A stretch of DNA of 64,000 nucleotides from Arion vulgaris (lineage: Eukaryota > Mollusca > Gastropoda > Stylommatophora > Arionidae), in the NCBI GenBank assembly GCA_020796225.1, contig CM036756.1, positions 50,262,363 to 50,326,362 of the forward strand. Direction: 5' to 3'. Made by a program: the position numbers and the translations under genes. Each line of letters begins with the position of its first letter. The first letter of the stretch is position 1. Under the pieces are notes generated by a model. It saw only the letters and a program-made list of their open reading frames with translations. It did no database searches and had not been told where the DNA came from. This document shows positions 8,816 through 61,297 of this stretch, one piece after another.

Positions 8816-10076
8816 ATTCACTTTTTGCGCCAGGATTAGTGAGCTGGCACTAACCAAGATCCTACCCCACCTCAACGTGGTGACCCTGGAAAAAGACAAC
8901 GGTTCCTGTCTAGCTAAGCGGGTAGGGATCGAGGGAGAGCTACTCTGGTATAAGTAGTGATGCAGACGCAGTTACATTGGATGAGATCCGCTCGCAACAC
9001 AGACGAGCAGAGTCCCAGAGTGACTATTAATGCACATCTCTCCTGGCCGATGGGGAAAAGCTGAACAAATAAACATGAAAGGTGCATCCAGAGAAGAGAC
9101 TGGGCCCATATGGGGAGAAACTCGGAGCCACAAGGTGGGAGCTCGAATTGAGTTGCGTGTTATGACAGTCTCGAGGCATAGTAAATGTGAGCACGGTGAG
9201 AAAACTGATAAACACGGTGAGCAGGCACCAAAGTAGAGAGAACACGCATACGGACGATACACAGGGGAGCCCACCGGTGGGGACAGACATGCACAGTACT
9301 GATGATAGAATGATGAAAAGGTGTGGTAAACGTAGGGGTGAGCGGACGCCCAATTGTGCAAAAAAACTGGAAAGCCCAGCAGAGGCTTGAATCCAGTGCA
9401 AAAGTTAATACCGAATAGTGATAAACTGTGCACTGTGCACAGTGAGATAGAAATGGGTAACGTATCGCCCAGTAGAACAATGTGAGCACAAATGACGGGA
9501 AAAAAAGGCACGGGCCCAGTCGGTGGACGAGGGCAGATGCAGAAATGGGCGAATGGGCACCAAAAAGAAACGCGAGGTGGTGAACCTCGAAGATAGGGTC
9601 TCCATCCAGAGAGCAATAACCGCGTTTCCCCTCGTAGATTACTACTGCCTTGTAGTTGATTGGGGACAATCAAAGACCAAAGGCTAGTGGAGCAAACCGT
9701 ACACAAAGCTGGACAGCAGGCAAACCAAGCAGTCCAAAAAAAAGACTGGTAAACTGGGCAGATGATGCTCAACAACACAGGAGGAAAGGTTGTCTAAGGG
9801 TAGCAAAAGAAAATAGCAACCTTCTGCCTTGCAGGTCGGCTGGGGACAGCCCGAGGCGAAGGAGAGCGAACCCAGTAAACGCTGGCTAAAACCGGACACA
9901 TCGACGAAGGATGAGCACCAGAGCTCCAAATGGCGCTAAAAATGTGACGAAATACACCCATGCTAAGGCTGCATGAATCAGATTTCCACATGAAAGCAGA
10001 ATTTATGGGGAAATCTGGTACATCAGTCTAAGTGGTGTTTGATCACTCGAGAGAGAGAAAAATAAAGAGAGAGAGA
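8816..10076 (+). mobile_element. LINE 5' leader copy without ORF, GA-rich tail
   Basis: Colinear with the leader of the LINE at 55.6-60.2 kb read on its minus strand. Matching blocks are around 8855-8945 (CTAACCAAGATCCTACCCCA), 9040-9150 and 9656-10000 (CCATGCTAAGGCTGCATGAA). It ends near 10020 and is followed by a GA-rich run (10045-10077), like the GA/CT-rich tail of the full element. No endonuclease or RT follows. It sits inside repeat R1. Overlapping open frames at 8972-9930 on both strands are by-products of its composition. Confidence 0.7.
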
Positions 10077-10185
10077 AAGGGGTAATAACTTCCCGGAATA
10101 GACAAAAAATAGTAAATACTCCAAAACCCAATTTTTTCTGAAATTTTGCCGGCCCCACCAAAATAAATGACCACGAGCCGCTACT
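10077..10185 (+). repeat. Dispersed repeat R1, right part
   Basis: GGGGTAATAACTTCCCGGAA and the following CCCCACCAAAATAAATGACC match 20205-20330. Together with 8748-8815 it rebuilds the uninterrupted copy at 20150-20340. Confidence 0.7.
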
Positions 10186-10410
10186 GCACCCAATATCTCC
10201 ATAAAAAAATTGCATATTAAAACAAGTTAAATACTTTAAGCGCCTAGGGAGCATATTTTCAGCAAGCATAAAAATACTTAATGAAATCCAACACAGAACA
10301 AAGAAAATCAAATGATAGGACAAATGGCGCTAATTTTAAAATGCAAACATGTCACCATGAACACAAAAAGAGCAATGTTCAACACCATCTTTCTCCCACA
10401 TTATGCTCAA

Positions 10411-47900: not shown

Positions 47901-50900
47901 AAATCAACACCTGAACTTCTGCCTCTATGACTATTAGGTTCTCTTGTCTACGTTCTCTTGTCTGCAGTCTGACACATACTGAAAATAATGTAATGGTTTC
48001 TGTTGGCCCTTGTATCTATTCTTCAATGAGTTCAATGTCTTCAAATGAACACACCTATTAAATACAGTCTTTGTCCAGACAAATCCACTATTTTCCTCTT
48101 TTTTTTTTCCCTTTACTTTCTTACTTTACTTTCTTACTTTCAAGGGCAGCAAGAAGGAATGTAATAATTATAGGGGAATCTCACTAATAAGTCACATAGG
48201 AAAAATGTATGCTAAGATAATTGAAAGAAGACTGAGACCAACAATTGAAGACCAACTCTCAGAAGCACAGATGGGTTTCAGATGAAACATAAGCTGTACA
48301 GATGCAATATTCACATTACGACAACTGACGGAAAGCGCAATCGAACATGAGACCTGTAGTGTGGCATTCATAGACCAGGAAAAGGCATTCAATAGAATCG
48401 ATAGAAACAAATTATGGAATTGTCTAAGAAAATATGGAATCAGCAAACATCTCATCAAGGTCTGCAAGAGCTTACACATTTCAAGTAAAAATTACATAAG
48501 AACAAAAGCCAGAACATCAAAAACATTCATAGTAAATTCAGGAGTTAGACAGGGATGTGTGCTCTCCCCACTACTGTTTATAACATACATGGACAACATA
48601 AGTAGAGAGCAGGAATGGAGGAAGAAAATAATATTTCAGAACTTTTCTTTGCAGATGACCAAGTACTGATTGCAGAAAATGAATCTCTCCAGAACCATTT
48701 GAGCTTAGTTAACATCAAGGGTGAGAAGTACAACATGAAAATAAATATAATAAAAACAGAGACAATGGAAATAAGTAGACCACCAGAATACCTTACAATA
48801 AAACTTTAGAAAGTAGAAGTAAAACAAACCAATGAGGCCAAATACTTAGGAGCAATTTTCACTGCAGACGGAAGTATCGATAGCAAAATCGATGCACAAA
48901 AGCTAACTAGGTACTGGGGTAGTTAACACCACTGTTGTCATATAAAGAGATACCGCTAAAAACTAAAGTAAATCTTATAAGAACGAATTTCTGGCCAACA
49001 CTATGTTAACAGTGTCAAACATGGCCAATAACAGCAGCTAATGAGCGGAAATCATAACAACGGAGATCAGGTGTCTTAGAAGAGCTTCAGGTGTGACAAT
49101 AAGAGACAAAATTAGAAATGAAGAAATCAGAAGAAGACTGGATGTGAACCCAGTCATGCATCATAAAATAACAACATATTAAATGGTTTGGACACCTGAC
49201 AAGCCTTTTTCCTGTTGCAAAATATGGATATGTGAATACTGGCCCTTATACAAATCTTAAGGCAGAATATCATATCTTTTGAAACATAGTACTAATGAAA
49301 AATTCTTAGAATGTCCTAGACAAAGAAGCAAAGAAATGCAGACATCCTACAAGACCTGATCAAGGAACATTGGCTTCTAAACAGTATCATGTCTTGGAAA
49401 CACATTTTGGTTACATTAAACATTCCAGTAGTTTAGAAAGAGCAATAATGAAATGCATCGCCCGAGTGGTTACTGGGGCTCAAATTTGGGGTGTCAAGAA
49501 TAGAGCCACTGTTACCTACCACGCATGTCGTAAGAGGCGACTAAGGAGGTTTGGCTGAAATCGAATGCACATGTCCTAAATGTGTAGAAGTCTATGCGTT
49601 TAGGGGCCTATCAAACCAATGTGCAACGTATACACGTTCTTGGCAAAGATCAAACATATCACAAAGAGTGATTAAAATTGGTCGTAAAGAACGAACGCAA
49701 AGAAGAAGAAGAAAGAAATGCATTGTTTCTGGTAGACAAGGAAGGGAAAGTACCACTGGCCAAAAACAAATCATAACAGTGCAGCACTGCATGATGGGAT
49801 TCTGTCCAGTCTGAAAGAATGACAAGATGTCGAAACCCTTTCCTGTCTCAAACAGAGCAAAACATAGCTGTGTACTTGCATCGACTCTGTTCAGCATGTT
49901 ATCTGCTATGTTGACTGATGCCTTTGGCAACATAGCAATCGGTGTCAGCTCTCATGTCAATAGTAAATAGTATAATATACAGTCTTCAAGCAAAAACCTA
50001 GGTTACATCACAGAAACCTTGTATATGCTGATGACTGTGTCCTCAATGCTAGCAGTTAGGATGATTTGTAGAAAAGTGTAGACATATATATTCTCTGCAG
50101 TCTGGCCCAATTTTGAGCTTACCATAAGCACAGAGAAAACTTGAAAAATGTACCAACCAGCTCTTACCTAGCAAAACATAGACTGAACCAAACATAAACA
50201 GTCAATGGCCAGGGAGTGAGAGCCTTGGACAGTTACACATTTTGGCAAAACACTGTTACAAAATGTCACAACTGAATCATGGAAATATTTTAGCCACAAA
50301 AAGATAAATGAGAAGTTGCATAAAAAAACTATTTATTTGTGCTCTCTTGCCACCAAATGCCAAGAAGTCATTGAAAACACTGCACAAAACAATGTTTCAC
50401 TAAAAAGATTACTTCAGGACATAATAGTGCTTCAAGTGGTTGATACATTAGGTCTAAACATAATTGGCGATGATCCACCTTTTAAGATTAGAGGAATGTT
50501 GTACGATGTCAATATTAATAGTTTGTTCTACACATTCTAACCTACTAATAACAATGCCTTTAAGGACCTACAGTCAGTCTGTCACTAACTTTGTTAACAT
50601 TACAAATACTAATAGCACCTTTTATGCAGCATGCAGCAAAAGTTTGTTGTTTACTGTAGTCACTTAAGCGGAATGTTATATTTTCATTGCTGTCACATGT
50701 GTCACGTGTAGCCACTGAAAGGTATGCATCCAAGATATCTGCTGCATTTGCAGTCTTCTTGAACCGTCCAGAAAAAATTCTACACAGCACTGAGTATTTC
50801 TCAGGGTTGAAATCTTTGCTTGTTAACACCAAGGCAAACTGAACAATCTGAAAACATAGTGTGAAGAGATATATAATTATTATAAGCATTACACTTTGAA

Positions 50901-53900
50901 AGAGAAAAAAATGGTTCAAATAGTATTTATGAGGATTGCAGGCAACAAAGTTAGCAGTAAACTATAAATTGATCTAGTTGGTTGAAAACTAATCTGCCAC
51001 CCTGGTAGAGTGTGTTGATTTCTTGTAGCTGCATACTTTCTAACACTTAACTGTGAATTGTGTTTCATTGAAGATGATGTGATTCATCAGTTCGACAGCT
51101 ATCACAGAGTAGATTTTGGGTTTTTTTCTGTTATAGTGAGAGATTAATTATGTCTCTATGAATCTGCTGACATTTTCATATTATCCAGTTCTGATATTGT
51201 ACATTGTACCATCAATATTTATGTGCCATGACATGATGACTTATTGAAATTGATGATTCAAAATTTAAATTTGTGTTTTGTTATCGTATATGTTGTACAT
51301 ATACACAGAACTGAGCTTTTACATCTTGCATTAGCCACTTGTCTCCTACTTAGGGCAAATATTCATTTTGCGTTTGTACTTGGGCAAATCTTAATAATAC
51401 GTGTGTCATCTGACTGCTAAGCATAGAAAAGTTATTAAGCTTCGTCTTTTGAAATTTATTTCTTTTATTGAACTCTCATTCTTCTGCTTATTGTTCAATT
51501 GTTTTTTTATGCTATTAACATTTGGTGTTACTAGTAATGAGAGGGCAGACAGACTTACACCAAAAACACCTAAAGCTTGGATGCTGGAGATGGATTAAGG
51601 GGATATGCTGTAGTTATTTAGCAACCACATTTTGGATGAAGGCATAGCAATTAATGATACATATATACTGTGGTTTATGGTATTTGTAATCAAACATTTA
51701 AAGAGTAGGACTGTGCAGGATACAGAGTTATTTAACAGCAAACTACAGGAACTATTAACATGCAAACCCTTCAACATTTGCTGGGTTGAAAATGAAATCC
51801 TATGTGTTTACCCGGAGTGCTTTGTCAGTTTAAAAAGCAATAATTTTACATTGAGCCATGTTAACTGTATCTATGTAAATGTAAATCTTACATGTCATGA
51901 CTCATCTGCAGGAGCAACAGGGACCATGCTCAGCGATTGTTATTTTCAGCAGATTAATGTGTATATATGAGTAAATGGAGATAACAGGAGGAAAAAGAGA
52001 TTTCAAATGAAGCTACATCAACTGTCTATATATGAGATTTTGCTAGGCCACTTTCATCACTACTACAGAAAATGGTCTATGATTTTTTATCTTCATCTTT
52101 CAGGAAAAAAATTTTTATTAGAATTTTGCCATCTAAATGTCCAAGCTAAAAATGTACTCTAACACAAAAAATTGTGGAACAAAATAACACAAATTTCACA
52201 AATAACATTATGAGGAGTTCCACAGGAACAGTCTTGGCCAGTAGGGATGATATTGTACTACAGTTGACACTTGATCGTCTTTCAGCCATTGTTAGCAGCA
52301 TTAAGATTTAAAATAAAATATGTTATGTTATGTGATCGACGTCATGGCACATTGGGCATTCCCATTCGTGCTGTCCTCTGCTGCAGCAGCCATCCCAAAG
52401 TCCATTTGGTCACCGTACCCATGAGAAGTTGATTACTATATCTTCTCTCTCTACCACGAAAAAGACACTGTCTGGCATGTCCAAACTTAACGCCTAATTC
52501 TCGAACTTGTTCCAGTGTCTGAGACATGCCCATGCCACATAATTGAGAGCGTCCGTTTTACGATATCGGCTCTGTCCATACTTCTGCCCGTTTGAGTCGG
52601 GCATTGTTTGCAAGAAAGTCAGCATGCTCGTTACCCTGCATTCCAGCATATACAAGTCAAATCATTTTCTTGAGATGTGATCTCCGAATGATGTCCACCC
52701 ATAATTAGTTCATAAGTACGGTTCCAAATTCACTGCAACGGGTCACCCCATAATTGCTCCGTTCCTGTGCTAATGAATATCACACGAAATGCTAACACCT
52801 GTGAAAAATTTCCTGTGTGAACTAATTCCAGAATGAAACAGCCGCGTACCGCCACAAAAAAGCAACCTGCACCGTATAAAATGCATATGGCCGTCGCGAA
52901 TGTAGCAACACAAAACTGTTCATCACTTGAATTGCAATTCTTGTTGAAGGGGACATCAATCACGGCAAAATCCAGCTTTCTGCACTCGCAATATAACTGC
53001 ATACGGCAGATTGAGCTTGTTCGTCATAACCGCTGTCCGCCATTTTCTGAATACACACAACAAACGCACGGATGACACAGCAAAAGCATTCCATGTAACA
53101 GTCACAGCTCACAGCGTTGCTCAAGCACTAACTCAGTAGCTCGGCAAACGAAACCAGAAAATACCCGACTAAACATGGCGGGAATGCACTAGAAAGTCGT
53201 GTTCAGAATCAAACCGTTCTGACTCTGAATGGCCCTGCCGTATTCCGCCATTGTTGGCCAGATGTCCACCCATTCCAGATTCAATCATTTGAAGCATATT
53301 CATCGAGTCTGATATGATAATCATATGGGTTACCTGTTGCTCAGCCACCCATGACAGAGCCATGGAGGCAGCGGTGATCTCCATAGTCATGCTTGATGTC
53401 GTTGTCTTAAAAGCACCGAAGTCCTCATGAAGTGTGCGACCGTTTCGTTGTGCTGAATAAACCCACTATGATCTGGTTCCGCGTTTGACAGAGCCATCGG
53501 TGTAGATAATGATATCACCTGGATGGGAGTGCTGATCCACGAGCGCAAGAATCTCCGCATTGACGGTGCCCGTGGTCCGTTCTCTTCAGCGGCATCCAAG
53601 TGTACTGACAACCCTGGTGTAAGCAGTCATATCCTCCGATATAGGCATCCATTCTTCACCATGCCTCAGCTCATCTAGAGTACAAACCTGTTTAATAACA
53701 TTTTCTGCCTCGGCCATCCAGGATTGGCCTCTCTTCAATCGCCTGCCCTTGTTTTTATTTATGGATTTGTGCAGAGGATGATTTGTGTCCGTAGAAACTC
53801 TCAGATAAGCTTTTACCTGTGCAACTTTGTGTCTTATGGCCATCGTTTTAAATTAATCGATCTTCGCCGGAGCTATGGAGTACGTGCATCTGTGCTGAGA

Positions 53901-56900
53901 ACTGATGCAGCATAACCACCAAAGAAAAAAAAAATAAGATATGAATCTGGCATGTGACTCAAGCAGAAAATCATAAAAGTAAAAATGGTAACAATGTATG
54001 TCAACATCTTAGAAACATGTGAGATGGGATTAGCTATATGCTGGAGAATTGCAGTCGTATAATTATAATATAACTTACTATGGAGGGAACAGACAGAGGT
54101 GACATCCTGGTAGAGTAGGCAAGAATATATGATATGATCATAGAAAACACCTGGTTCAAACTACACCACATAACTGGACATGAAAAATCCAAGGGGCAAT
54201 GCTACTAACCAAACATACCATATTTTGGGCCCCAAACAATTTGGAATTTTTTTTAATCTACTAAAACAATGCCTGGGTCAGACTGCAACAGTGACCATGT
54301 AAAAAAAATTGTAAATTGAAAATAAAATTGAAGAAAGTAAAGAAGACACCATGAAATATCAAACTAGATTTAGCCTTCCCTCCACATTATAACAGTTTGC
54401 CAACGCCCCCCCTCCCACATATATACATGCTCTATTTTCTCTTTGTCATAGAAAATTGATATAAATTTCTGTAATACATGGTCAATTTTCAAATGATTAT
54501 ATGCATGAAATAGAAAATTTATGAAAAAATGGATCTTGTAAGACAGGCATAAGATGAACTAAAATGCAGAATTCAAATTTTAAATGGTTATTCAATAGCA
54601 AAATCACGAAAATAATTTAATTTAAAATATTCACCCGCCTGCCCAGCATGTTCGTAACGCGTTGGACGATGGGTGACAAGTCCTCTGTGCGTGCGGGTTC
54701 AGTTCCGTGGACTGGCAGAAAAGGCACAGGTTCTCCAGATTTACGGTGTTCGTGGCACCAAACCGAAGGGTTACAATGCCCATGGTACCGAGCCGAAGAG
54801 CTGAAAGCTCAAGTGCTTCTGGATAAAAAAAAATTTTAATATTTATTATTAATTTCTTCTTTAAGGAGCCACCGACCCTTAATCGCATGGACACCCCTCA
54901 AATTCTTCTGAACCCCCTATCGCCGTATGGAGAGCTGGCTTCTTGCTAAAGAACTGTGGGACAACTCTTCCTTCACTACTAAGATGCAAGAAAGTGTAAC
55001 TTGAAGACGCTTGACATCAATACACAAGACTGGGACAGGAGACATGCTCTGAATACGGGCCTGAGAACTGTTGAAGTCAGACTAAAACAACTTGCTGGCA
55101 TAAAATGTGTGAAGAAAAACCCAGAATTAAATCCACAATGGGTGATACATCCCTTGTCTCTCAAGACTAACACAGAATACCATCCATCATCATCGAGACC
55201 AACCAACCTTCTACTCGAAATCATGGCACACAACCTCTACACCAGACTTGGAATTCATTAACTCATCAGACTATGAAGAGATATTTTTCTAGTAATGAAA
55301 ATGTATGATTTAAGAGATTGTATTATGCAGTTCACAAAGAAATATGTTGTTTATGAGCTGTACCTTGAGCAAAAATTGAAAAGTTACAAAATAATGGTAG
55401 TGGCTTTTGGAAATAAAAATATATCTCTCTCTCCCTCCCTCCCTCCCTCCCACTCTCTCTCTCTCCCTCCCTCCCTCCCACTCTCTCTCTCTCCTCCCCT
55501 CCTCTCCCCTCCCTCCCTCCCACTCTCTCTCTTCCTCCCTCCCTCTCTCCCTTTCCCTCTCCCTGGGTGGCCTTGGGTTAGTGCTTTGGCACTTTTGCAA
55601 AGCTGGTTCTCTGTATCCTGCCCCTTCCTAGTCCGTTCATCCTGACATACATAGGGTGGGAGTTAAGCCGTTTCAGTTTTTCTGACAGTATCGTAACTTT
55701 CCTGTCTCTGCGGTCTGGCATTGTTTGGAGGCCTATGATTGTTTCCATCGCCTTGATAGGCGTGGACTTCATGGCACCTGTGATAATGCGCGCTGCTCTC
55801 GATTCTGACTGCTGCTCACTTTTGCAAATTGCTTATTGGATGCACTGCTCCATGCTGCTATGCCGTACTCCAGGACCAGTCGCACTCTTCAAGTGTATAG
55901 TGTTTTGAGGACTCTGGTGTTTGCTCCCCATGTGGAGCCTGCGAGTTTGCGCATCAGCGTGAGCCTGTGTCTCGCTTTTGCCGTAACATTTTCAATTTGA
56001 GGGCACCAAGTCAGTTTTCGGTCGAGTGTGACTCCAAGGTACATTGGGGTCTTGCTTTCTGGAAGTTTTTGCCCGTTGACTCTGAGCGTAATTTTGTGAT
56101 TCTGGTTGTTCTGTGAGAACACAGTGTAGGTTGTCTTAGAAGCGTTAATGTTCAAACTCCACTTTTTTTACCACACTTTCAAGTTATTTAGCGTTACATG
56201 CATTCGATTTGTTGCTATGGCCATTGACTCTTCCCTCGTCCATATTGCCAGGTCGTCGGCATACATGGCAGAGTGTACTCGCTTTGGTAGGCATGTTGTT
56301 ATATCATTGACAAAGATTAGAAAGAGGGTTGGTGAGAGCACTCCTCCTTGGGGACTCCTTGCTCCAATGTCGCCTTCTTGCTAGTGTACCCCTGAACTTG
56401 AACCCTTGCTGTTCTGTTCTCTAGGTATCTATCAAGCCATTTGTACATTTTTCCTTTTATACCGAGGGTGAGGAGTTTCAGTCTTAGCCCTTCCTTCCAG
56501 ACTGTGTCAAACGCTTTCTCCATATTTACCAAAACTGCCAGTGTATGTTTTTTTTCTTGGAAACCATCCTCGATTTCCTGGGCGATATAGGTTACTTGAT
56601 CTTCTGTAGATCGGTGCTTCCAAAGCCTCCCTGTTGTGTCATGAGAAGCCCTTTGCTTTCCAAGTGCCAAGATAGCCGTTTGTTCACCATGCGTCCCATG
56701 AGTTTGCCTGTGCAGCTTAGGAGGCTTATTGGTCGCAGGGTCGAGTTTATTTTTGCCTGGTTTAAGGATGGGTACCATGATCGCTTCCTTCCATTCTCGT
56801 GGTACTATGCCTGTTTTCCAGGACATATTTAGGACGGCCAGTAGAGCTGCCTTTGCTCTAGTACCCAAGTTCTTAAGCATCTCATTTGTGATCCCCTCAT

Positions 56901-59900
56901 TTCCGGGCGACTTTCTGAGCTTCAGCTCTCTTAAAGCCTCTTCCAACTCATTACTGGTGAATGTATCCGTTAGGTGACTATCAGCTTTACTTGGCTCGCC
57001 TTGGAGGGCTCTCACTTTTCTCTTAGTGTCATCGACTTTTTCTTTTGCTATGCTTACTCTGCTGACTTCGGCATATTTTTGCCTTAGTATGTTTGCGACT
57101 TCCCTTCCTAAGGACATCTTTTTATCTTGTTCAAGGACTATTGGGGGTCGGCTGGTGTTTTGATCACTCAGCACTTTTGCTAACTTCCACAATTTATGGC
57201 CGTCCCTATCAAGGTTCAGGGATTCGGTCTTATCAACCCAACTCTGTCGTGCTGATCGCTTGACCTCACGCTTGTACCTTGCTGCTGCCACCTTGTAAAC
57301 AGTATTGGTCGTTACTGACTGTGCCTGTTCAGCCTCACTACTTGCCAATTCAAGGTCGTTTTCAAGCTTCTGAGCCTCTGCTATCCAGTATGGCTTGTAA
57401 TTCTTCCGTGCGCCTCTAGGAATGGTTTCCTGTGCCGCTTTCAGGATTGCTTGTGAGAGTTCCCTTGCCACGGATCACATGTTTTTCTTTTCATGCATGT
57501 TGATGCGCTCAACATTGACATCTGTCAGTGCCCAGTACTGTTTCCAATTTGCTTTTTTGTAGTTCCACCGTGGCAACCAAATTTTGGGCTCAGGTACAAA
57601 TTTTAGGTCTACTTGGAGTTTGACAGGCCTGTGGTCACCGTTCTCCGAGATGAAGATCTCCGAGTTGCTTTGTGACCGTTCATAATGTTTTTGTGGAGAG
57701 GTCGCGTGTTGCGAAGGCCAAATCAGGGGTGCTAGTCGTATGCCACCTTCTTGAGTAGAAAGTTGGCAGGTCGTCTGGGGCATTGATGAGGAACAGGTTG
57801 TTCTCTATCTCCCAGTCTTCCACTTCTACGCCTCTGCTGTTCGTTTTGAGGTAGCCCCATCTATCTGAGTGGCTATTGAAATTGCCGACCACCATGCATG
57901 CTGTATCATTGATAATCATTGCATCGAGTGACAGCGAGATGTAATTAGGATGCCTACGATCTCTACTGCACCGGCGATTCCTGTGGTTACATCCACTTGC
58001 TTTGCTGGAATGCCGTTCCGTACTAGGGTGAGGACTCCACCCTTGTGCCCTTCTCGGTCCAGTCTGAAGGTTTGGTAACCTCTGATCCCGAATCTATGTT
58101 GTGCATTTAGGTGGGACTCTTGTATGTACGCAATATCAATTTCGTCTTCTGCAAGTCTTTATTGCGAGTGCTTGTTTTTTTGTGATGAATGCCTTCGGCA
58201 TTCCATTGCACAATGTTTAATCGTCGCTGGCCAGTACTTTGCCGTATTGAACCAGTAGCTTTTTCCCTTGGGCCTCGCTCGCTGCTTTGCCGAGTTGGAG
58301 GACAGGGACCATCGTAGCAAAAACGGCCCCTTCAAGGCATGGGGCCCAGCACTCATCCTGCCCGACGGATCTCTACAGGTGTAGCACCATATCGAGATTT
58401 GATATTAAACAAATTCATGATAAGATTTGGTCCATGCAGCCTTAGCATGGGTAGCTACGTCACAACTTTCAGTGCCAATTGGAGCTCAGTTGCTTGTTTT
58501 TTAGCCGTGTGTCCGATTTCAATCAACGTTTACTGGGTTCGCTCTTCGTTAGCCTTTGGCTGTTCCCAGCCAAAACCCACAAGGCAGCGGGTTGCTATTT
58601 TCTTTCAGGGCAGCAACGCTTAGACGACCTGCCCTCCCGGGCTGATGAGCATCATCCGCCCAGCTTTACCTGTTTTGGACTGCTTGGTTTGCCTACCATC
58701 CAGTTTTGTTTGCGGTTTACTCCGCTAGCCTTTGATTGTCCTCAACCAAAACTACAAAGCAGCAGTGGTTCCCTACAAAGAGAACAGAGTCTTGGGACGC
58801 TTTATGGACGCTCGGGTTGACACTAGGCAATTTGCATTTGCTCTGTCATTTCCTTTGATCCAGTAAACCCTGGGCTGAGGCCCCGAACATCTTAATGCAT
58901 GGGTTATTTCAATCGGCTCTATCAGTGGTTTCACATACTCTTGAACTCTCTCTTCAAAGTCCTTTTCAACTTTCCCTCACGGTACTTGTCCGCTATCAGA
59001 CTCGTGCAAGTATTTAGCCTTAGATGGAGTTTACCACCCACTTTGGTTGCATTCCCAAACAACCCGACTGCTGAGATGTTGCCGCACAGAGAGGCACCTG
59101 CAAGGCCTTATACCCGCTCTGGGTGAAACCCCGATCAGGAGGACTTTGGCGCCCTCTGTTGCAGCTTGTGGCGTCCCACACACCACAGTTCCCGTCAGCG
59201 TGACACTGAGGGATTCGGTGCTGGGCTTTTCCCACTTCACTCGCCATTACTTGGGAAATCGCCATTGCTAGTTTCTTTTCCTCTGCTTAGTTATATGCTT
59301 AAATTCAGCAGGTAATCTCGTCCGATCTGAGGTCGGAGTATTATGTGTTTTTAACTTCTTTTTTTTGGAAAGTAGGGCACCGTCGCATCCTCACACCCTG
59401 TACCATTCATGCTGCTCACAATTATATACCTGGAAGCTGATCCGACCAACATGTTCACACATCTGCCGTTTCATGTACCGTGCCTCGGTCTGCTCTGACA
59501 CTCAGCTCGACTCGTGCACAGTGCTCTGAGTTTTACTTCGCGTGGGTTCTGTTTTCTGTTTGGGGTGCACCTCTCAACCCTTCACATGCAGCCTTACCTA
59601 TCTGCCGGGAAGCTGATACGACCAACGTGTTCACACATCTGTCATTTCATTTAGCGTGTCTCGGGACTGCTCCGACACTCAGCTTGACTCGTGCACATGG
59701 CACCGAGTTTCACTTCATGTCTCGGCTTTGGGATGCACTCTCTTCCATTAAATTCGGTCATTTACTCTGGGGAGTTATGTACGGTCGCTCGTACTCTGCA
59801 GTTTCATACTTCTTTTTTTTAACTTGGGCATATTTTAGTGGACTTTGGCCAGGAAATGTGTGTGTTGTTCAGGATTTCGGCCCCTGCATTGCTTTTCCGT

Positions 59901-61297
59901 GTTTGCACTACCACAACTGTTTTGTTCGCGGACGCTCATACGCAGCTGTTTCGACTTTTAATTTGGGCATATTTTAGCGGACATCGGCCAAGAGATGCGT
60001 GCTTGTTCAGGGGTTTTCTGCCCTGCATTGCTTTTCCGTGCTTGCACTACTACCACTACCTGTAGGTCTCCCGATCCCTGCCCCCTTAGCCAGACTGGAA
60101 CCACAGTCTGTTTTCAGGGTCACCACTTGGAGGTGGGGAGCAGTGTCTTGATTAGCGCCGCCCCTTCGCTAACCCTGGCACATGTAGCCTCCATGCGCCT
60201 TTTACCCCAAAATCTTGTTCAAGATATCTTCCACTTACAAAATGATAATGTAATATCCAGTTTCAGTAGAATAAGTACATTTTTATGAAGAATTGTCAGT
60301 TTCTTTAGACAAAGGTCACAAAATTATATTGCAGGAAATTTCCCTAACCCTGTTTTGTTAATTCATCAAGGAGAAAGACAATGGCTGTCATTTCTTTCTT
60401 TCAGACATGGCAGACATTATGGTAAAAACTAGAATATCACTACATGACAGCTGCAGAGGCCTATGAGAGAGAGATATCCAACGGACTGCTGAGGTAGCAA
60501 AGTTTTGCTCCGGACAAGTAATTTGATGATCATAACATCACTAAGTTAATGAAAATGTTGCGCCATGAAATATAAAACTAAAAAAAGAAAAAATATTAAA
60601 CTGCTAAAATATCAGAAAATAGCAGAAGATTACAACTAAAGTACACACAAGTAAATTGCAAAAAACAACTAAGCAAGAGAACATAGTTGTTTGCAACAGC
60701 ATAGCAGAATAGATGGTAAGCCTTATGCTTAAATCATGGCATGACAAGATGAAAACAGCAAACAGATCTTTGACTAATAATGCACAAATTAACAACAAAG
60801 AGAAGCAAAATGGGCAAAATGAAATTTCAGCTATAACTTCTGGGATTTACAAAAAATGTAGGACATCATAACTACAAAAATCACACATCTGACACAACCT
60901 TTCTGACCAGATAAACCAATATATTTCTATTCAATATGTTTATTGAAGAGGCAATGATTGTTTGATATTTATAGTTCATACATAAACGAACTCCCATACA
61001 ACATAAAAGTATTCTTTAGCTTTCAGAATTGCATGAAAATGTACAATCTATATATATTTGTTTTTAAAAAAGGTGATAGTAGATACCATGGCTATACCTT
61101 TGAAAGACTCAAGTATTCATCAGTCAAATCCACAATCTGTATATAGTACCATACTTGTTTCCATCTGCCATACACAAATTTAATAGGCAATGGACTATCC
61201 CCGCCTAAACCAGATTTGACAATAAAAAAGTTTCTTTGTTCTGCTGAAACTGATGGGTATGACCAGGTCCACAGCACATCATTGTTGTGATCCCTCT
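11765..61297 (-). CDS. DENND10: DENND10 (FAM45) homologue, seven exons in 49.5 kb, first exon not found
   Basis: Encodes a DENN-domain protein. In vertebrates DENND10 belongs to the endosomal Commander assembly and is linked to late endosome and exosome handling through Rab27. Seven minus-strand exons with consensus AG/GT borders give about 340 codons, close to the 357-residue human protein lacking its first ~18 residues. Conserved blocks in order: VLWTWSYPSV, SKDFNPEKY, LLKKRIVVY, WHRQNWDI with HYVAGF, DLFDLFVNAP, SLAMGKLHK and MPPATENFL. Exon phases agree at every junction except the last (24012-24104 to 11765-11938), where one base is in excess. Introns are 2.6-12.1 kb and full of transposons. 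No upstream exon with the start codon was recognised up to 64000. A possible ATTAAA poly(A) signal lies at 11619-11624. Confidence 0.92.
12120..12800 (+). mobile_element. RTE-like LINE 3' part
   Basis: Frames read LQDVESYTYLGSNIDTEWG, LRIFQLNVKSVLF, ELRKRRWRWIGHTLRRPTGN and a C-terminal WKKFVEDLCSIGS, the RT thumb and C-terminal region of RTE-type ORFs. One frameshift lies near 12400. Related to 29945-30640, and its end is related to 30940-31035 (minus). Confidence 0.8.
12801..13435. other. Intronic DNA without recognisable features
   Basis: No coding similarity, tandem repeat or element end was found. It lies inside the last DENND10 intron. Confidence 0.5.
13440..14866 (+). mobile_element. 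I-group LINE with RNase H, decayed, split by a MITE
   Basis: Translations match the I-like family at 35.5-36.7 and 45.0-46.1 kb. They include LVLSTIEYVAASLTISEMQI and MHIILGCTRIHLL before the MITE, and the RNase H parts SSLSMIWKVEAGSVHRQW and FITGHIGVDGNKRAGW after it. Many stops. The copy stops at about 14866, where an inverted RTE piece begins. It preserves an uninterrupted version of the site that carries a SINE at 35743 (14445-14470). Confidence 0.75.
13872..14213. mobile_element. TTAA-flanked MITE, copy 1
   Basis: About 340 bp similar along its length to 43065-43368. The left end reads CTCTTTCCATG; the right end is the decayed inverse CATGAAAAGC. The flanks are ATAA (left) and TTAA (right). 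It has no coding capacity and interrupts an I-group LINE. The TTAA target and short inverted ends suggest a piggyBac-type non-autonomous element. Confidence 0.7.
14870..15195 (-). mobile_element. RTE-like LINE 3' end, inverted
   Basis: The minus strand reads CTEYIERQQMQWFGHLMRMK, then KERPRKRWIDIIKTTLHKHG and ATHLALECKLKL. Nearly identical to plus-strand 37988-38310. It is sandwiched between an I-group LINE and the chimeric piece at 15208. Confidence 0.8.
15208..15775. mobile_element. Chimeric LINE unit, second copy
   Basis: The left half (to about 15355) is minus-strand RT sequence including the YADD region; the right half is plus-strand YQCQTWTLTTNDRRKLISTE to IKWFGHISRLP. The same inverted junction and both arms occur at 11036-11590, about 95% alike by eye, but the outer flanks differ. 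No single ORF crosses the junction. Confidence 0.75.
15776..17000. repeat. Dispersed repeat R2, copy 2 (interrupted)
   Basis: Matches 7600-8300 on both sides of the insertion at 15820-16360, for example TGATTAGCTTTGAAAGTTGA at 15780 and GTGTACTTATTATTTTATAA at 16498. AT-rich and non-coding. Confidence 0.7.
15820..16360 (+). mobile_element. Unclassified ~550-bp element, copy 1
   Basis: Matches 52703-53260 in inverted orientation along its whole length, from TGGCCAGCAATGGCGGAATG to CCGTACTTATGAACT. Flanked by an imperfect long duplication (ATATAACTCTAGAAAAATC at 15801, ATATAACGCTAAAACATC at 16361). The uninterrupted site is at 7652. No terminal inverted repeats, no poly(A), and frames no longer than about 100 codons. 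Duplications of this length suggest LINE-mediated insertion. Confidence 0.75.
17020..20145 (+). mobile_element. Nearly full-length BovB-like RTE retrotransposon
   Basis: The leader (17020-17330) is followed by an APE-type endonuclease: KIKIGTWNVRTMNEGKHQIV, ISEHRWSG, LIIMGDVNAKVG and ADCASDHELLM. The RT follows from about 18650: PGCDNISAEFIKAGG, SIFIPIPKKGD, IDYSKAFDCVEHQELW, CLFNIYAENIMRN, and the active site RYNDDTVLL, which has Asn where YADD is usual. The C-terminal region includes LRYFGHIKRHEGL. It ends in a TGATGATGATGATAAA tail at 20131-20145. More than six stops or shifts make it inactive. It lies antisense in the last DENND10 intron. Confidence 0.9.
20150..20340 (+). repeat. Dispersed repeat R1, uninterrupted copy
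   Basis: Matches 8748-8815 plus 10077-10185 without the LINE-leader insertion. No coding similarity; AT-rich. It lies between the RTE tail and the Penelope 3' end. Confidence 0.7.
20512..20545 (-). ncRNA. hammerhead-like core in Penelope 3' UTR, copy 2
   Basis: The minus strand reads TTGATAA, a GGCC/GGUC stem with UUGUU loop, then GAAAC and a two-pair helix III (AC/GU) followed by UU. Two core positions differ from the active consensus (C3 to U, G8 to A), but they could pair with each other. Helix I is not evident. Confidence 0.45.
20781..21357 (-). pseudogene. Penelope-like Cys linker and GIY-YIG endonuclease
   Basis: From 21357 the frame has LVAYRRDRSLKDMLVHSRLK and a Cys-rich motif (CGRRLCNTCAY). 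A shift near 21150 leads to IIYAIICKRCNKAYIGETGR and LSDRFAQHLRDIRQ, the GIY-YIG core (here IYA...YIG) with its conserved Arg. A further shift leads to VATHFNDTGHSG and RFALENRLISLYGT. GIY-YIG nucleases nick the target for Penelope insertion. Confidence 0.9.
21354..22172 (-). pseudogene. Penelope-like reverse transcriptase
   Basis: 272 open codons: FHLDVCSLYTSIPHSDGL, QISGVAMGTKMGPSYACLFM, the RT active site YHRYIDDCIGI (YIDD) and CVNFLDITITI. This fits Penelope-type RTs, which are related to telomerase. The domain looks intact in this frame, but the element is shifted on both sides. Confidence 0.92.
22748..23296 (-). pseudogene. Penelope-like element ORF, N-terminal part
   Basis: 182 codons containing LSLSDSERCVLSKGLKFVPL and LQDVHRFHRGLRLKFHF. 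The KGLKFVP motif and following aromatic/basic stretch are typical upstream of the Penelope RT. Between 22172 and 22748 the frame is broken and conserved sequence is weak. Confidence 0.8.
23460..23760 (+). mobile_element. RTE-like LINE 3' end
   Basis: Reads RRRRWRYVGHALRRNDQRIS and a decayed C-terminus, ending in CATATATAACATATAACTGT. The same end is at 36665-36960. Its left side was replaced by the Penelope-like element. Confidence 0.7.
24012..24104 (-). CDS. DENND10: DENND10 exon 7
   Basis: 93 bp between CATTTCAG and GTAACT. It encodes ESLAMGKLHKDIAVLMMEKA and then DDDNLSDIDYK, matching human EAMAMGKLHKEMGQLIVQSA. With the visible donor it ends one base out of phase with the last exon. An extra A in the TATAAAG end, an unseen microexon or a sequencing error could explain this. 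Confidence 0.9.
24105..24890. other. AT-rich intron sequence without features
   Basis: Directly upstream (in gene sense) of DENND10 exon 7. Homopolymer A/T runs only; no coding similarity or element end. Confidence 0.55.
24895..29150 (+). mobile_element. Long LINE with endonuclease, RT and RNase H (Jockey/I-like)
   Basis: The leader (24895-25430) is followed by an APE endonuclease with ELQNFLKEHDIDVCCIQETH and NWIIVGDFNSHSPSWG. The RT begins near 26640: LKEKKAPGADGITMN, PKSYRPISLLNCAGKLMERL, EGVPQGSVIAQLFLIYIN and LHADDFAIW. The thumb has GLRITMRAMKSSPIIEME. An RNase H domain follows at about 28280-28670 (FSDSRFVLQAI, SQWIPAHCGIPGNEKADKLA). The 3' end near 29150 encodes TLFMTHTGVV. Numerous shifts; antisense to DENND10. 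Same lineage as 55.6-60.2 kb. Confidence 0.88.
29248..29345 (-). mobile_element. I-group LINE 3' terminus with CCAATAA tail
   Basis: The minus strand reads ATATCTGTTGGGGGAGACTG to GACGTCAGTTTAGTAACC and a short CCAATAA repeat. The same terminus is at 33190-33275 (plus). Confidence 0.75.
29346..29535 (-). repeat. Dispersed repeat R4 with CCGATATATCGG palindrome, copy 1
   Basis: Matches plus-strand 63210-63360, including GATATATCGGCTTTTGGATG and ACGAATGTATCTTCACAACC in the minus reading. It holds two GATATATC palindromes. Non-coding and not classified. Confidence 0.6.
29690..29915 (-). mobile_element. BovB-like RTE endonuclease fragment (downstream half)
   Basis: The minus strand matches 17640-17870 of the RTE at 17 kb, around the MGDVNAKVG endonuclease motif (here ATGGGAGACTTCAATGCG). 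Together with 30650-30962 it formed one RTE copy that was later split. Confidence 0.7.
29945..30640 (+). mobile_element. RTE-like LINE 3' part inserted into an RTE copy
   Basis: Reads VGEFVYFGSKISKSGGTDEE, IFSSNVKSVLLYGSEMRRVT and WRWVGHILRKTQ, with a 3' end near 30640. The family is that of 12.1 kb. It carries a short CACACAGTGTG duplication at 30118-30145. It separates the two halves of a minus-strand RTE endonuclease. Confidence 0.78.
30650..30962 (-). mobile_element. BovB-like RTE endonuclease fragment (N-terminal half)
   Basis: The minus strand reads KIGMWNVRTMNEAKH and LNINILGIAEHR, matching the start of the 17-kb RTE endonuclease. Confidence 0.75.
30940..31035 (-). mobile_element. RTE-like LINE 3' end
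   Basis: The minus strand matches 12745-12815 (TGGAAGAAGTTTGTTGAAGA and TGTTGGGAGTTGATAGGTGA). Only the last ~90 bp remain. Confidence 0.65.
31120..31335 (+). mobile_element. SINE (GAA-tailed family), old copy 4
   Basis: A diverged match to the 35.7-kb SINE: ATAAGAGGCGACT, GAAATCGGATGTG, CAATGTACAATCGTTCTTGG and CACACAGAGTG. Head and tail have decayed, so no target duplication could be defined. It ends 57 bp before DENND10 exon 6. Confidence 0.65.
31393..31460 (-). CDS. DENND10: DENND10 exon 6
   Basis: 68 bp between AATATTAG and GTATTG. It encodes TDLFDLFVNAPASKITVAPH, then SK, matching human PDLYDVFVNLAESEITIAPL. The small size and both phases agree with the neighbouring exons. Confidence 0.92.
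31560..31795 (-). mobile_element. LINE 3' end, RTE-like, decayed
   Basis: The minus strand reads YLVYFGHIKT, EEKVEGRRSRED and SLAECTVRAKDRT, the usual C-terminal end of RTE-type ORFs. Confidence 0.65.
31810..32510 (+). mobile_element. RTE-like LINE, RT thumb and C-terminal part
   Basis: A copy of the family at 10411-11190. The plus strand encodes VHRFKYLGTLLTSDGRCKTE, a stop-broken thumb, and an end matching FFGHKMRREGLEHL. Several in-frame stops. Confidence 0.75.
32545..33280 (+). mobile_element. I-group LINE, RNase H and 3' end
   Basis: Reads NTDGVGSRGEKSGWGF, TSSMRMEVEAVTAALHWI, VVVSDSQSMLHKIQ and VFCNERADRLAS, the conserved acidic RNase H positions. It ends YLLGD and a tail of GTAACCAATAACCAATT near 33275. 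The last catalytic region is shifted. Confidence 0.82.
33281..33945 (+). mobile_element. Penelope-like element, GIY-YIG part and 3' end
   Basis: 5'-truncated. Reads LIYAIICKRCNKVYIGETGK, RLSDRFAQHLRDIRQCSV and VATHFNDTGHLG, then a shifted end and a 3' UTR to about 33945. Close to the copy at 20.4 kb but less frameshifted in the nuclease. It directly follows an I-group LINE 3' tail. Confidence 0.88.
33851..33882 (+). ncRNA. hammerhead-like core in Penelope 3' UTR, copy 3
   Basis: TTGATAA, GGCC/GGUC stem with UUGUU loop, then GAAC (one A short of GAAAC) and GTTGCTGTA. Same U/A core substitution as the other copies. Confidence 0.4.
33950..34785 (+). mobile_element. Jockey/I-like LINE, RNase H and 3' part
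   Basis: Reads EVQALNLAAKTLKNISAFQQ, VLQWVLSYCGIPGKERSDKL and LIRLRIGHKRLNRHLHRLRL, then CAVEHILQDCHL, the RNase H and Cys/His-type tail of the lineage at 24.9-29.1 kb. Stops between frames. Confidence 0.78.
34915..35145 (+). mobile_element. I-group LINE 3' end
   Basis: Closely matches 45885-46115: ATATGCAAAGAGATTGAGTA, GAGGAGATCGGAGCATCTAT and TAGTCCTTATATAACTGATA. Only the last ~230 bp remain. Confidence 0.75.
35485..36660 (+). mobile_element. I-group LINE, RNase H region, carrying a SINE
   Basis: Upstream of the SINE: GEEWIPMPSIYGNTFSTIIK and VALDADVKAIIDE. Downstream: VVINMDGSEFATKSPH (first RNase H Asp), ASSMTMEVLAVTNALCWLES (Glu), HVYILSDSLRMIRKVEAG (Asp) and FIPGRMGVVGNERADSL, then ARKEQHNRYMSRLINQNRTG. 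One of the better preserved RNase H domains here. Ends at about 36660. Confidence 0.85.
35743..36003 (+). mobile_element. SINE (GAA-tailed family), copy 2
   Basis: Starts GCTTCGCCCGAGTGGTTACT (A-box-like) and ends in a GAA repeat tail. Flanked by ATTGATGAAA at 35733-35742 and 36004-36013, an exact target duplication. The paralogous LINE at 14445-14460 shows the uninterrupted site. Confidence 0.92.
36665..36960 (+). mobile_element. RTE-like LINE 3' end
   Basis: Similar to 23510-23760 (AGAAGATGGAGATATGTTGG, TGAGAAGAAATGATCAAA, TACAGGCTATATGTAACA). Confidence 0.65.
36961..37730. other. Intronic DNA without recognisable features
   Basis: AT-rich, no coding similarity or element end found on either strand. 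Confidence 0.5.
37735..38315 (+). mobile_element. RTE-like LINE 3' part
   Basis: Reads IKSIFLPTLCYQCQTWSLTA, then CTEYIERQQMQWFGHLMRMK, KERPRKRWIDIIKTTLHKHG and THLALERKLKLPS. Its last 320 bp recur inverted at 14870-15195. It is followed by a TA microsatellite (38323-38349). Confidence 0.82.
38756..42235 (+). mobile_element. Nearly full-length LINE of the CFDP2-like endonuclease/RT type
   Basis: The leader (38756-39160) holds repeats of the GGCTAGGGAGTAAACC module. Endonuclease from about 39165: PLRFGTWNVRTMCPGLV, AIQETRLPDCGS, LFILGDLNARKGSD, QLDFVLTRRQHLN, DCDTDHALVISK. RT from about 40560: KASGLDNIPAEVLKYN, YKNKGDKGDCNNYRGISLLS, ESQCGFRARRSTTDMIFTLR, CIAFLDLTKAFDTVSRPSLY; then, shifted, SGVKQGCVLAPTLFGI and LLFADDAALVAHSET. 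The C-terminal region has LRWLGHVRRMETYRIP. The main open frame (40280-41113) is the longest of this element. Antisense to DENND10. Such proteins are often listed as craniofacial development protein 2-like. Confidence 0.9.
42240..43060. other. Intronic DNA, partly degenerate CTA repeats
   Basis: No coding similarity. 42905-43010 is a degenerate CTACTA/ACTACT-rich stretch. Confidence 0.5.
43065..43368. mobile_element. TTAA-flanked MITE, copy 2
   Basis: Bounded by TTAA at 43065-43068 and 43365-43368. The right end reads CATGGAAAGAG; the left end (CTCCACGTGGAG) has decayed from its inverse. Matches 13872-14213 throughout. It lies about 90 bp downstream of the DENND10 exon 5 donor. Confidence 0.75.
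43459..43599 (-). CDS. DENND10: DENND10 exon 5
   Basis: 141 bp between TTTTTCAG and GTACAC. It encodes SIPAFAWHRQNWDIVFPFVH, then EISSLQSCSHYVAGFTEAAVEG, aligning with human LPALVWHRQDWTILHSYVH and GYVAGFVDLEVSN. Confidence 0.95.
44010..44365 (+). mobile_element. RTE LINE 3' end with TGATGATGATAAA tail
   Basis: Reads RGRVPRRRGRPRRRWLQDIK, then ETMNMTIGEVGELARDEVNF, ending in CTTGATGATGATAAATG. The tail type is shared with the 17-kb RTE. Confidence 0.75.
44388..44615 (+). mobile_element. tRNA-derived SINE
   Basis: The 5' part resembles a tRNA: an A-box-like segment (GAATGAATTAGAGCACGAG) and, 30 bp on, a B-box-like GGGTACAATCCC. A tRNA-unrelated body of ~130 bp follows. The acceptor stem and full cloverleaf are not preserved, so it is not a functional tRNA gene. 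Confidence 0.75.
44616..44995. other. AT-rich intron sequence without features
   Basis: Poly(T) and A/T runs; nothing recognisable. Confidence 0.5.
45000..46115 (+). mobile_element. I-group LINE, RT C-terminus, RNase H and 3' end
   Basis: The longest open I-type frame (45015-45920): RIQNEAMRIILGCTKDTPG, RFLLDLPTIANRIETWRV, then an RNase H with TSSLTMEVRAVTEAVSW, VFILSDSMSMIRKVESG and FIFVPGHAGVRGNERADRLA. The first RNase H Asp region is altered (VVIYTMVQSF where a DGS motif is expected). The 3' end runs to about 46115 with AAAGERHTKYAKRLINQHRT-like sequence in a shifted frame. It stops 94 bp before DENND10 exon 4, antisense to it. Confidence 0.87.
46209..46326 (-). CDS. DENND10: DENND10 exon 4
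   Basis: 118 bp between CCCACAG and GTTTGTG. It encodes DIIHTFGIESILLYTAVLLK, then KRIVVYFPPH and LLDYTR, aligning with human DIVSQFGMETVILHTALMLK followed by KRIVVYHP. The phases fit exons 3 and 5. Confidence 0.95.
46535..47175 (+). mobile_element. I-group LINE, RT C-terminal fragment
   Basis: Decayed plus-strand reading with VKYLDVRYN, AFKERIDHIITKARKGLLVI and YHQLVMSTIVYAI, the region upstream of the LERIQNEAMR-type block. Many stops; the end near 47170 is diffuse. Confidence 0.65.
47225..47965 (-). mobile_element. I-group LINE, RNase H and 3' end
   Basis: The minus strand reads VNVYTDGSVVRHMQSSWAFT, SLEIIAVTKAMAWLESHFYP and TGVNGNERTDL. Its 3' end (AATATAGTTTAGTCAACAG in the plus reading) matches the ends at 61960-62165 and 63520-63725. 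Confidence 0.72.
48125..49250 (+). mobile_element. RTE-like LINE, RT and C-terminal part
   Basis: Reads CNNYRGISLISHIGKMYAKI, EAQMGFR, CSVAFIDQEKAFNRIDRNKL, SGVRQGCVLSPLLFITYMDN, then in a shifted frame LFFADDQVLIAENE (FADD active site). The C-terminal part has QCQTWPIT and IKWFGHL, so it belongs to the YQCQTW family of 11.2 and 15.4 kb and shows that family's RT. Confidence 0.85.
49330..50265 (+). mobile_element. LINE RT fragment, split by a SINE
   Basis: Sequence before and after the SINE belongs together. Downstream the plus strand reads KEGKVPLAKNKS and, after shifts, LVYADDCVLNAS (YADD active site) and HKHREN. Heavily decayed; the clade is not clear. Confidence 0.55.
49459..49714 (+). 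mobile_element. SINE (GAA-tailed family), copy 3
   Basis: 256 bp matching 35743-36003. Flanked by GAAATGCAT at 49450-49458 and 49715-49723. The head reads CGCCCGAGTGGTTACTGGGG; the tail is GAAGAAGAAGAA. Confidence 0.9.
50266..50615. other. Intronic DNA next to exon 3, no supported gene
   Basis: A 74-codon plus-strand frame (50316-50540) has no family resemblance and overlaps no splice signal. I treat it as chance. Confidence 0.5.
50619..50847 (-). CDS. DENND10: DENND10 exon 3
   Basis: 229 bp between GTTTTCAG and GTGCTA. It encodes IVQFALVLTSKDFNPEKY, then the ILDAYLSVATRDTCDSNENI block, ending at CCIK. The SKDFNPEKY motif is nearly identical to the vertebrate protein. It starts in phase 0 and leaves one base for the next exon. 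Confidence 0.95.
50850..51495. other. AT-rich intron sequence without features
   Basis: No coding similarity recognised. Confidence 0.5.
51500..51830 (+). mobile_element. I-group LINE RNase H scrap
   Basis: GVTSNERADRLTPKTPK and the following GGATTAAGGGGATATGCTG match the family at 32930-33020. CCCGGAGTGCTTTGTCAGTT at 51811-51830 matches its 3' end. Decayed. Confidence 0.55.
51840..52325. other. Intronic DNA without recognisable features
   Basis: Nothing supported on either strand. Confidence 0.5.
52330..53870 (-). mobile_element. I-group LINE, RNase H region, split by the ~550-bp element
   Basis: The minus strand reads MAIRHKVAQVKAYLRVSTDT, RRLKRGQSWMAEAENVIKQV, LRHGEEWMPISEDMTAYTRV, SSMTMEITAASMALSWVAEQ and MIIISDSMNMLQMIESGMGG. 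The insertion follows, and then QGNEHADFLANNARL and HARQCLFRGRERRYSNQLLM. The RNase H domain was one piece before the insertion at 52703-53260. Confidence 0.8.
52703..53260 (-). mobile_element. Unclassified ~550-bp element, copy 2
   Basis: Inverted match to 15820-16360. Exact 13-bp target duplication GATGTCCACCCAT at 52690-52702 and 53261-53273. Removing the element and one repeat restores the RNase H reading of the host LINE. No inverted ends, no poly(A), no long frame. Confidence 0.85.
54070..54400 (+). mobile_element. RTE-type LINE endonuclease fragment
   Basis: Reads RGDILVE, MIIENTWFKLHHITGHEK and MPGSDCNSDHVKKIV, the C-terminal half of an APE endonuclease with its SDH motif. Stops inside. 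Confidence 0.65.
54640..54840 (+). mobile_element. tRNA-derived SINE candidate
   Basis: An A-box-like CGTAACGCGTTGGACGATGG and B-box-like GCGGGTTCAGTTCCG about 30 bp apart, then a ~110-bp body and an A-rich end (54824-54840). It differs from the SINE at 44.4 kb. Only one copy was seen, so the call rests on the tRNA-like head. Confidence 0.6.
55150..55285 (+). mobile_element. Jockey/I-like LINE endonuclease scrap
   Basis: The shifted plus reading QPTFYSKSWHTTSTPDLEF matches PTFYSRRWHTTSTPDLAF of the element at 57.7 kb. Only about 100 bp are recognisable. Confidence 0.55.
55421..55565. repeat. CT/CCCT-rich simple repeat (GA-rich on the LINE strand)
   Basis: CTCTCCCTCC-type polypyrimidine run of about 145 bp. 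It lies exactly at the 3' end of the minus-strand LINE, so it may be that element's expanded tail. Confidence 0.9.
56317..57471 (-). pseudogene. LINE reverse transcriptase, 384 open codons
   Basis: Begins with a linker (PRGARKNYKPYWIAEAQKLE), then RKSPGNEGITNEMLKNLG, REWKEAIMVPILKPGKNK, STEDQVTYIAQEIEDGF, LVNMEKAFDTVWKEGL and ARVQVQGYTSKKATLEQGVP. Between about 56745 and 56620 the open frame is wrong: the usual RPISLLSCTGKLM block is in another frame. Two compensating shifts therefore keep the ORF open. The GVPQGSVLSP and YADD regions lie after the stop, broken. Confidence 0.85.
57475..58215 (-). pseudogene. LINE endonuclease domain, broken
   Basis: The minus strand reads IVQWNAEGIHHKK near 58210, then FRLDREGHKGGVLTLVRNGI, MVVGNFNSHSDRWGYLK and LPTFYSRRWHTTSTPDLAF, ending GDHRPVKLQVDLKF. 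These are the N, D/N and H motif regions of an APE-type endonuclease. Several shifts. Confidence 0.8.
58925..59341 (-). rRNA. 28S rRNA 5' segment (~415 nt), embedded in LINE leader
   Basis: The minus strand begins GACCTCAGATCGGACGAGAT, then GAATTTAAGCATATAACTAA, GGCGAGTGAAGTGGG, GCCCAGCACCGAATCCC and GACAAGTACCGTGAGGGAAA, ending after AGAGAGAGTTCAAGAGTATG. This is the start of eukaryotic 28S rRNA through the D1 region. The similarity begins at the mature 28S 5' end and stops abruptly near 58925. Both flanks are LINE leader, not ITS2, so this is not a functional rRNA gene. Confidence 0.93.
59440..60055 (-). repeat. Two pairs of direct repeats in the LINE leader
   Basis: Pair 1: 59450-59570 and 59616-59740, sharing GTTCACACATCTG and ACACTCAGCT. 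Pair 2: 59815-59920 and 59955-60055, sharing GGGCATATTTTAG and TGCATTGCTTTTCCGTG. Repeated leader units are common in LINE promoters. Confidence 0.8.
60236..61095. other. Intronic DNA with a short RTE 3' end
   Basis: Mostly AT-rich without features. 60437-60530 (GACAGCTGCAGAGGCCTATG to AAGTAATTTGATGATCATAA) matches the last 90 bp of the 17-kb RTE, on the plus strand. Confidence 0.65.
61098..61297 (-). CDS. DENND10: DENND10 exon 2 (first one found)
   Basis: 200 bp, entered after TTTATAG and left before GTATAG. It encodes ERDHNNDVLWTWSYPSVS through FVYGRWKQVWYYIQIVD to LSLSK, matching the N-terminal longin-like part of the DENN module (human LIEKDTNGEVLWVWCYPS). It needs one base from the missing first exon to complete its first Glu codon and ends in phase 0. 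Confidence 0.93.

Follow-up and report, generated by a model that had tools for sequence, protein, structure and literature searches.

We analysed a 64,000-nt stretch of Arion vulgaris DNA (contig CM036756.1; the whole stretch is called the window below) in which a decayed long interspersed element (LINE) on the minus strand contains a piece of 28S rRNA within the leader that precedes its open reading frame (ORF). The 28S segment is in sense orientation, starts near the 28S 5' end, and has LINE leader on both sides, at distances of 88 and ~124 nt (Table 1). The element is likely a tripartite LINE-28S-LINE chimera. Our preferred interpretation, which we hold with a probability of about 0.6, is that the first ~410 nt of 28S rRNA were captured, in sense, into the leader of this snail-type LINE through two template jumps of reverse transcriptase (RT).

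A 28S rRNA segment within a LINE leader

The initial annotation had reported 28S similarity on the minus strand, and this was borne out by the eukaryotic large-subunit rRNA model of Rfam (RF02543), which scored 258 bits (E 3.3e-66) in a scan of the whole window and was the sole Rfam match there to reach the gathering threshold. Applied to the region alone, the same model gave 269 bits (E 1e-70), beginning at model position 1. The first nucleotide of the 28S opening, GACCTCAGATCGG, lies at 59334 (-) and not at 59341, as had been annotated, while the annotated end near 58925 and length of ~415 nt are close to the ~58924 and 411 nt found here. Identity to the model is 21/25 at positions 376-400 and falls to 6/17 at 401-425, which implies that the match ends at about model position 410, presumably near the start of the D2 expansion segment. 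Judged by its fit to the model, the 5' edge is the mature 28S start within a few nucleotides. The segment and the LINE share the minus strand, so that the 28S sequence is sense with respect to the element.

The segment has decayed. Gapped positions set aside, it departs from the eukaryotic model, which served as reference in place of the A. vulgaris 28S, at 20 of 196 positions that the model marks as strongly conserved (upper case). CpG transitions account for 5 of the 20, and some of the other changes will be lineage differences. These substitutions would fit an old, non-functional copy better than an active rDNA unit that was misassembled. The segment has a CpG observed/expected ratio of 0.65, compared with 0.75 and 0.60 for the leader on either side, 0.62 for the ORF stretch and 0.55 for the whole window, and so does not stand out by this measure. 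A kept base pair at model positions 26/52 (C-to-U and G-to-A) was considered as a trace of selection and dropped, because both changes are CpG transitions and so give no evidence of it. ARAGORN found no tRNA. Scans of viral contigs and of genome contigs returned no related DNA; ten stretches in one viral scan matched the pattern, and none was confirmed. Collections of plasmids (302 records, 20 listed) and phages (8 records, all listed) gave partial matches only, with at most 28% query coverage among the matches listed; these we infer to be bacterial 23S rRNA, the matches listed carrying no rRNA annotation.

The leader of this element (copy 1), 1.76 kb from ~60178 to 58419 (-), was compared with a second leader in the window (copy 2), which diverges from it by ~25% in the alignable parts. 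The proximal leader aligned at 74.9% over 367 columns (58766-58414 against 9641-9994; E 8.5e-62), confirming the downstream match to copy 2 that had been claimed, and the most distal leader at 76.4% over 123 columns (60182-60062 against 8826-8943; E 2.8e-17). Copy 1 holds two tandem duplications, 60057-59956/59918-59817 (~104 nt) and 59716-59599/59539-59423 (~118 nt), the halves of each being ~84% alike. Homology of 59641-59960 to copy 2 was supported by an alignment score that only 3/500 shuffles equalled; support was weak for 59341-59640 (14/500), where the aligned part is the second duplicate of the ~118-nt pair. Two related stretches of the proximal leader (58763-58720 and 58588-58544, -; 77.8%) are hairpin-capable and conserved in copy 2. 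A stretch at 38764-38801 (+) resembles them (78.9% over 38 nt, E 0.002).

The colinearity with copy 2 described in the initial annotation thus holds for the distal and proximal leader and not for the immediate flanks of the 28S segment. No similarity to copy 2 was detected for 59341-59422, which makes up 82 of the 88 nt upstream (equalled by 230/500 shuffles), or for 58780-58917 downstream (489/500). Shuffle-supported upstream similarity stops at ~59423-59470, reaching just ~9190 in copy 2, with nothing beyond toward 9390. Neither flank was significantly similar to copy 1's own leader (59341-59422 against 59500-59640, 92/500 shuffles; 58780-58917 against 59341-60180, 33/500), and neither matches elsewhere in the window at E 0.05. 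Because colinearity fails for the 88 nt nearest the 28S segment, which are not demonstrably LINE leader, the accompanying argument that the upstream sequence is not internal transcribed spacer 2 (ITS2) is weaker than claimed, and a short ITS2 remnant at this place is possible. These 88 nt have a GC content of 42%, and their last 45 nt one of 31%.

Copy 2 had also been said to lack 28S sequence, and this is upheld with a margin of doubt. Rfam found no 28S in 8600-10300 at E up to 1. A degenerate 28S piece seen there by eye was not supported, the best alignment to 9200-9680 being equalled by 14/300 shuffles, a borderline value. Judged from these searches, copy 2 appears to be without convincing 28S.

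The host LINE and the predicted ribozymes at its leader starts

The ORF begins with an ATG at 58418 (-), directly after the leader. A relative from Littorina saxatilis (P0052) aligns through residues 9-85 to 58397-58176 in the frame of this ATG, which implies that the ORF continues from the proximal leader. Pfam identified an APE-type endonuclease (PF14529, E 1.5e-10) and an RT (PF00078, E 7.4e-9) on the ORF pieces; five of the nine pieces gave no endonuclease, RT or RNase H match or no match of any kind, and two more gave just weak unrelated matches or a sub-threshold RNase H match. Among 7993 candidates scored, 62 protein relatives were found at E <=1e-3. An organism is named for nine of these, and seven of the nine come from Arion, Elysia (E. 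chlorotica among them), Nucella and Littorina, with A. vulgaris, E. crispata, N. lapillus and L. saxatilis being gastropods; the remaining two, which score lowest, come from Strongylocentrotus purpuratus and Trichonephila clavipes. The host is therefore probably a gastropod- or snail-type endonuclease-RT (EN-RT) element, as judged from its protein alignments.

A weak RNase H piece further along the minus strand may belong to the host LINE as its far 3' portion, separated from the rest by an insertion. It is overlapped by a 560-column repeat with 90.7% identity between its two copies (52706-53263 and 16361-15817). Just 3' of the RT remnants lie a CT/CCCT microsatellite (55424-55564) and, on the opposite strand, a LINE endonuclease piece (55182-55259, +) with 56-75% identity to several queries over 20-25 aa.

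Both leader copies are predicted to open with a self-cleaving ribozyme like that of hepatitis delta virus (HDV), a feature that the initial annotation had overlooked. The Rfam model drz-agam-1 (RF01787) aligned over its whole length to copy 1 (23.0 bits, E 0.11) and copy 2 (20.8 bits, E 0.32), both below its gathering score of 37. The window has two occurrences of the core motif CCACCTCNNNGTGGTG, one at each leader start, compared with a mean of 0.00 in 100 shuffles. A structure made by hand, which has the P1/P2 pseudoknot with P3 and P4 in both copies, contains 31 pairs; 57 of 62 cells are paired (91.9%), compared with 24-39% when the structure is slid along the sequence, a comparison that favours the structure since it was drawn from the same two sequences. 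Three pairs are changed on both sides, a number equalled by 53/500 shuffles and drawn from two sequences only, so that covariation alone is weak evidence. The J1/2 hairpin is extra in both predicted ribozymes, and one of its pairs is changed on both sides. When a shorter core was sought together with P1 and the CTAAG joiner, copy 1 showed all of these features and copy 2 lacked a 6-bp P1; in 100 shuffles the shorter core matched 8 times, never with both P1 and CTAAG.

HDV-like ribozymes are described at the 5' ends of elements without long terminal repeats (non-LTR), namely L1Tc/ingi Pr77 (PMC4035085) and R2 (PMC3774820, PMC5035012). The position at the element 5' end is the same as here, and the CCTC...GTGG core of the predicted ribozyme resembles those of R2 (PMC5035012) and drz-agam-1. 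Unlike the known HDV-like ribozymes, both present copies score below the Rfam cut-off and are predicted only.

Table 1. Features of the 28S-bearing LINE and of the second leader copy in the window
Feature	Positions	Strand	Basis and remarks
Predicted HDV-like self-cleaving ribozyme, copy 1 5' end	60073..60178	-	P1 pseudoknot, J1/2 hairpin, P2, P3, P4, CTAAG joiner
Distal (5') leader, copy 1; includes both tandem duplications	59423..60178	-	756 nt; alignment to copy 2 and to itself
Upstream neighbour of 28S, origin unassigned (divergent leader or possible ITS2 remnant)	59335..59422	-	88 nt; shuffle tests
28S rRNA 5' segment	58924..59334	-	411 nt, ~model positions 2-410; RF02543 match and edge identity
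Downstream neighbour of 28S, origin unassigned	58800..58923	-	124 nt; shuffle tests
Proximal leader ahead of ORF start, conserved with copy 2	58419..58799	-	Window self-alignment
Decayed ORF: N-terminus, APE-type endonuclease, RT; several frames	56069..58418	-	Pfam and protein alignments
Weak RNase H piece	53169..53465	-	PF00075, E 6.4e-4, 20.4 bits (cut-off 25.8)
Second, diverged leader copy (copy 2)	8830..9989	+	Starts with predicted ribozyme; aligned ATG at 9990
Predicted HDV-like ribozyme, copy 2 5' end	8830-8930	+	drz-agam-1, sub-threshold

Proposed capture during reverse transcription and competing explanations

In the model that we propose, RT copying the LINE RNA at the target site would have come off the leader around 58924 and shifted onto a 28S rRNA fragment whose 3' end lay at about the D2 start. 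On reaching the mature 5' end of the 28S it would have run off this template, then returned to the 5' part of a LINE RNA and copied it to its 5' end. The predicted ribozyme would generate that end by releasing the LINE RNA from a host co-transcript, and the chimeric copy would afterwards have decayed through substitution and frameshift. Capture during reverse transcription is favoured by the sense orientation and the edge at the 28S start, and also because neither a word resembling a target-site duplication (TSD) nor another 3' half of a LINE on this strand was seen. Stretches of 61 nt, one at each 28S edge, have no word of at least 5 nt in common, and the wider flanks (59335-59470 and 58760-58923) share none of at least 7 nt. 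Downstream on the minus strand, the window holds neither another leader nor another EN-RT copy. The template switching proposed in the initial annotation therefore stands as the best reading on these grounds, and has lost part of its ITS2 argument.

Several observations weigh against this double-jump capture. Neither the 88 nt upstream nor the 124 nt downstream of the 28S segment has a leader match, and the edges were set against the Rfam model, so that their exact positions are approximate. The CpG ratio of the segment is not below that of the window. A TSD search around the whole LINE, a decayed element whose 3' end is not fixed, yielded a single 8-mer, which lies 20 nt away from the predicted 5' end. 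Moreover, an internal 28S segment needs two jumps or two events, whereas published 28S/LINE-1 chimeras carry the RNA at the LINE 5' end; here the distal leader, 756 nt long and including the predicted ribozyme, is found to the 5' side of the segment.

Human 28S/LINE-1 chimeras are reported from 18 loci, with lengths of 50-482 nt, 83% in sense orientation, and the RNA at the LINE 5' end (PMC13174262). They are like the present element in that the 28S piece measures a few hundred nucleotides, is mostly in sense and arose in one retrotransposition event; the present piece differs in being internal and from the 28S 5' end, and its host is a gastropod-type EN-RT LINE with a predicted ribozyme. Tripartite chimeric retroelements of Magnaporthe grisea and mouse, ascribed to double template switching, also unite three RNA pieces in one LINE-made copy, but their outermost piece is a different RNA (WEIRD, B2), whereas the present element has LINE leader again on the outside and 28S in between (PMC2104539). 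Bipartite 28S/LINE-1 and tripartite LINE chimeras are known, and what differs here is the internal position of the 28S segment. In R2 elements, sequence derived from 28S is described at the 5' junction or within the 3' untranslated region (UTR) (PMC3774820, PMC5035012). They resemble the present LINE in having 28S in or beside a UTR, some with a ribozyme, and differ in that the 28S pieces at their 5' junctions come from around the insertion site and not from the 28S 5' end. Membership of the present LINE in R2 was rejected, because its endonuclease is of the APE type (PF14529) and not restriction-like, and because the 28S 5' end lies inside its leader and not at the R2 site. No gastropod LINE with 28S in its leader was found in titles and abstract openings, most subscription papers being outside the scope of that search. 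If the junctions hold, 28S capture would not be confined to the 5' end of a LINE and would extend to the inside of its leader, here in an APE LINE of gastropod type that is distant from mammalian L1. A leader put together from tandem duplications and foreign RNA, with a ribozyme in front, would go some way to account for the fast turnover of LINE 5' regions.

The 28S segment could also be a subfamily trait, captured in an active master element that went on to give rise to many copies of its 28S-bearing leader, possibly because the rRNA structure is of use to the LINE RNA. We rank this first among the alternatives and consider it unlikely. Family-wide rRNA pieces in LINE UTRs are exemplified by R2 families with 28S-derived 3' UTR sequence (PMC5035012). 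However, the sole other leader copy in the window lacks convincing 28S, although this single comparison is diverged enough that it may represent another subfamily, and conserved 28S positions are changed, though possibly after copying. Reading frames spanning the junctions had no relatives among predicted proteins, which is weak evidence since leaders are non-coding. In the ribosome, the 28S 5' domain pairs with 5.8S rRNA. A spreading LINE subfamily with the 28S 5' end built into its leader behind a self-cleaving ribozyme, in which this rRNA domain steers the LINE RNA to nucleolar or ribosomal partners, is a speculative idea that we judge improbable. The initial annotation had allowed for a role of the rRNA in the leader; this found no support, given the state of copy 2 and the 20 changed conserved positions, and the double-jump capture implies no function of the captured rRNA.

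Later insertion of a retrocopied rRNA or a fragment of rDNA, which may have included some ITS2, into an existing LINE copy ranks second and is likewise unlikely. It would accommodate the unmatched flanks, which allow a block larger than the 28S segment. Against it, TSD-like words are missing at the 28S edges and in the wider flanks, although an old TSD may have decayed; there is no A run at the 28S 3' edge; and beyond about model position 410 the sequence no longer follows the expected 28S. The GC content of the last 45 nt before the segment would, moreover, be low for a gastropod ITS2. In a two-step origin, a 5'-truncated LINE with 28S at its 5' end would have landed in the leader of another, older copy of this LINE. 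Such an origin has the merit of requiring just a single-jump chimera, as is known for human LINE-1. The remainder of the older LINE would then be expected 3' on the same strand, and neither proximal leader nor EN-RT sequence is present there in the window, which makes this origin very improbable. Least probable of all is an assembly join of rDNA and LINE contigs. rDNA arrays are frequently misassembled, but here two independent false joins inside one leader would be required, and the changes at conserved positions, as judged against the model, are unlike an active rDNA unit. A short interspersed element (SINE) with a 28S head was also considered and rejected, as 58800-59422 was not found a second time in the window at E 0.05 and sits inside the LINE leader.

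Other elements in the window

Another decayed LINE (25459-27547, +) aligns to the same EN-RT queries with 24-41% identity, and further RT-like stretches matching these queries lie at 40235-41488, 48148-48600 and 18666-19160 (+). An RT ORF at 21354-22172 (-), with an RVT_1 match just under the Pfam cut-off (E 2e-6), is presumably of a Penelope-type element. A Transposase_1 remnant at 6525-7160 (+) is one that we take to be mariner-like, and a 301-aa ORF at 45015-45920 (+) contains an RNase H domain (E 9.7e-11).
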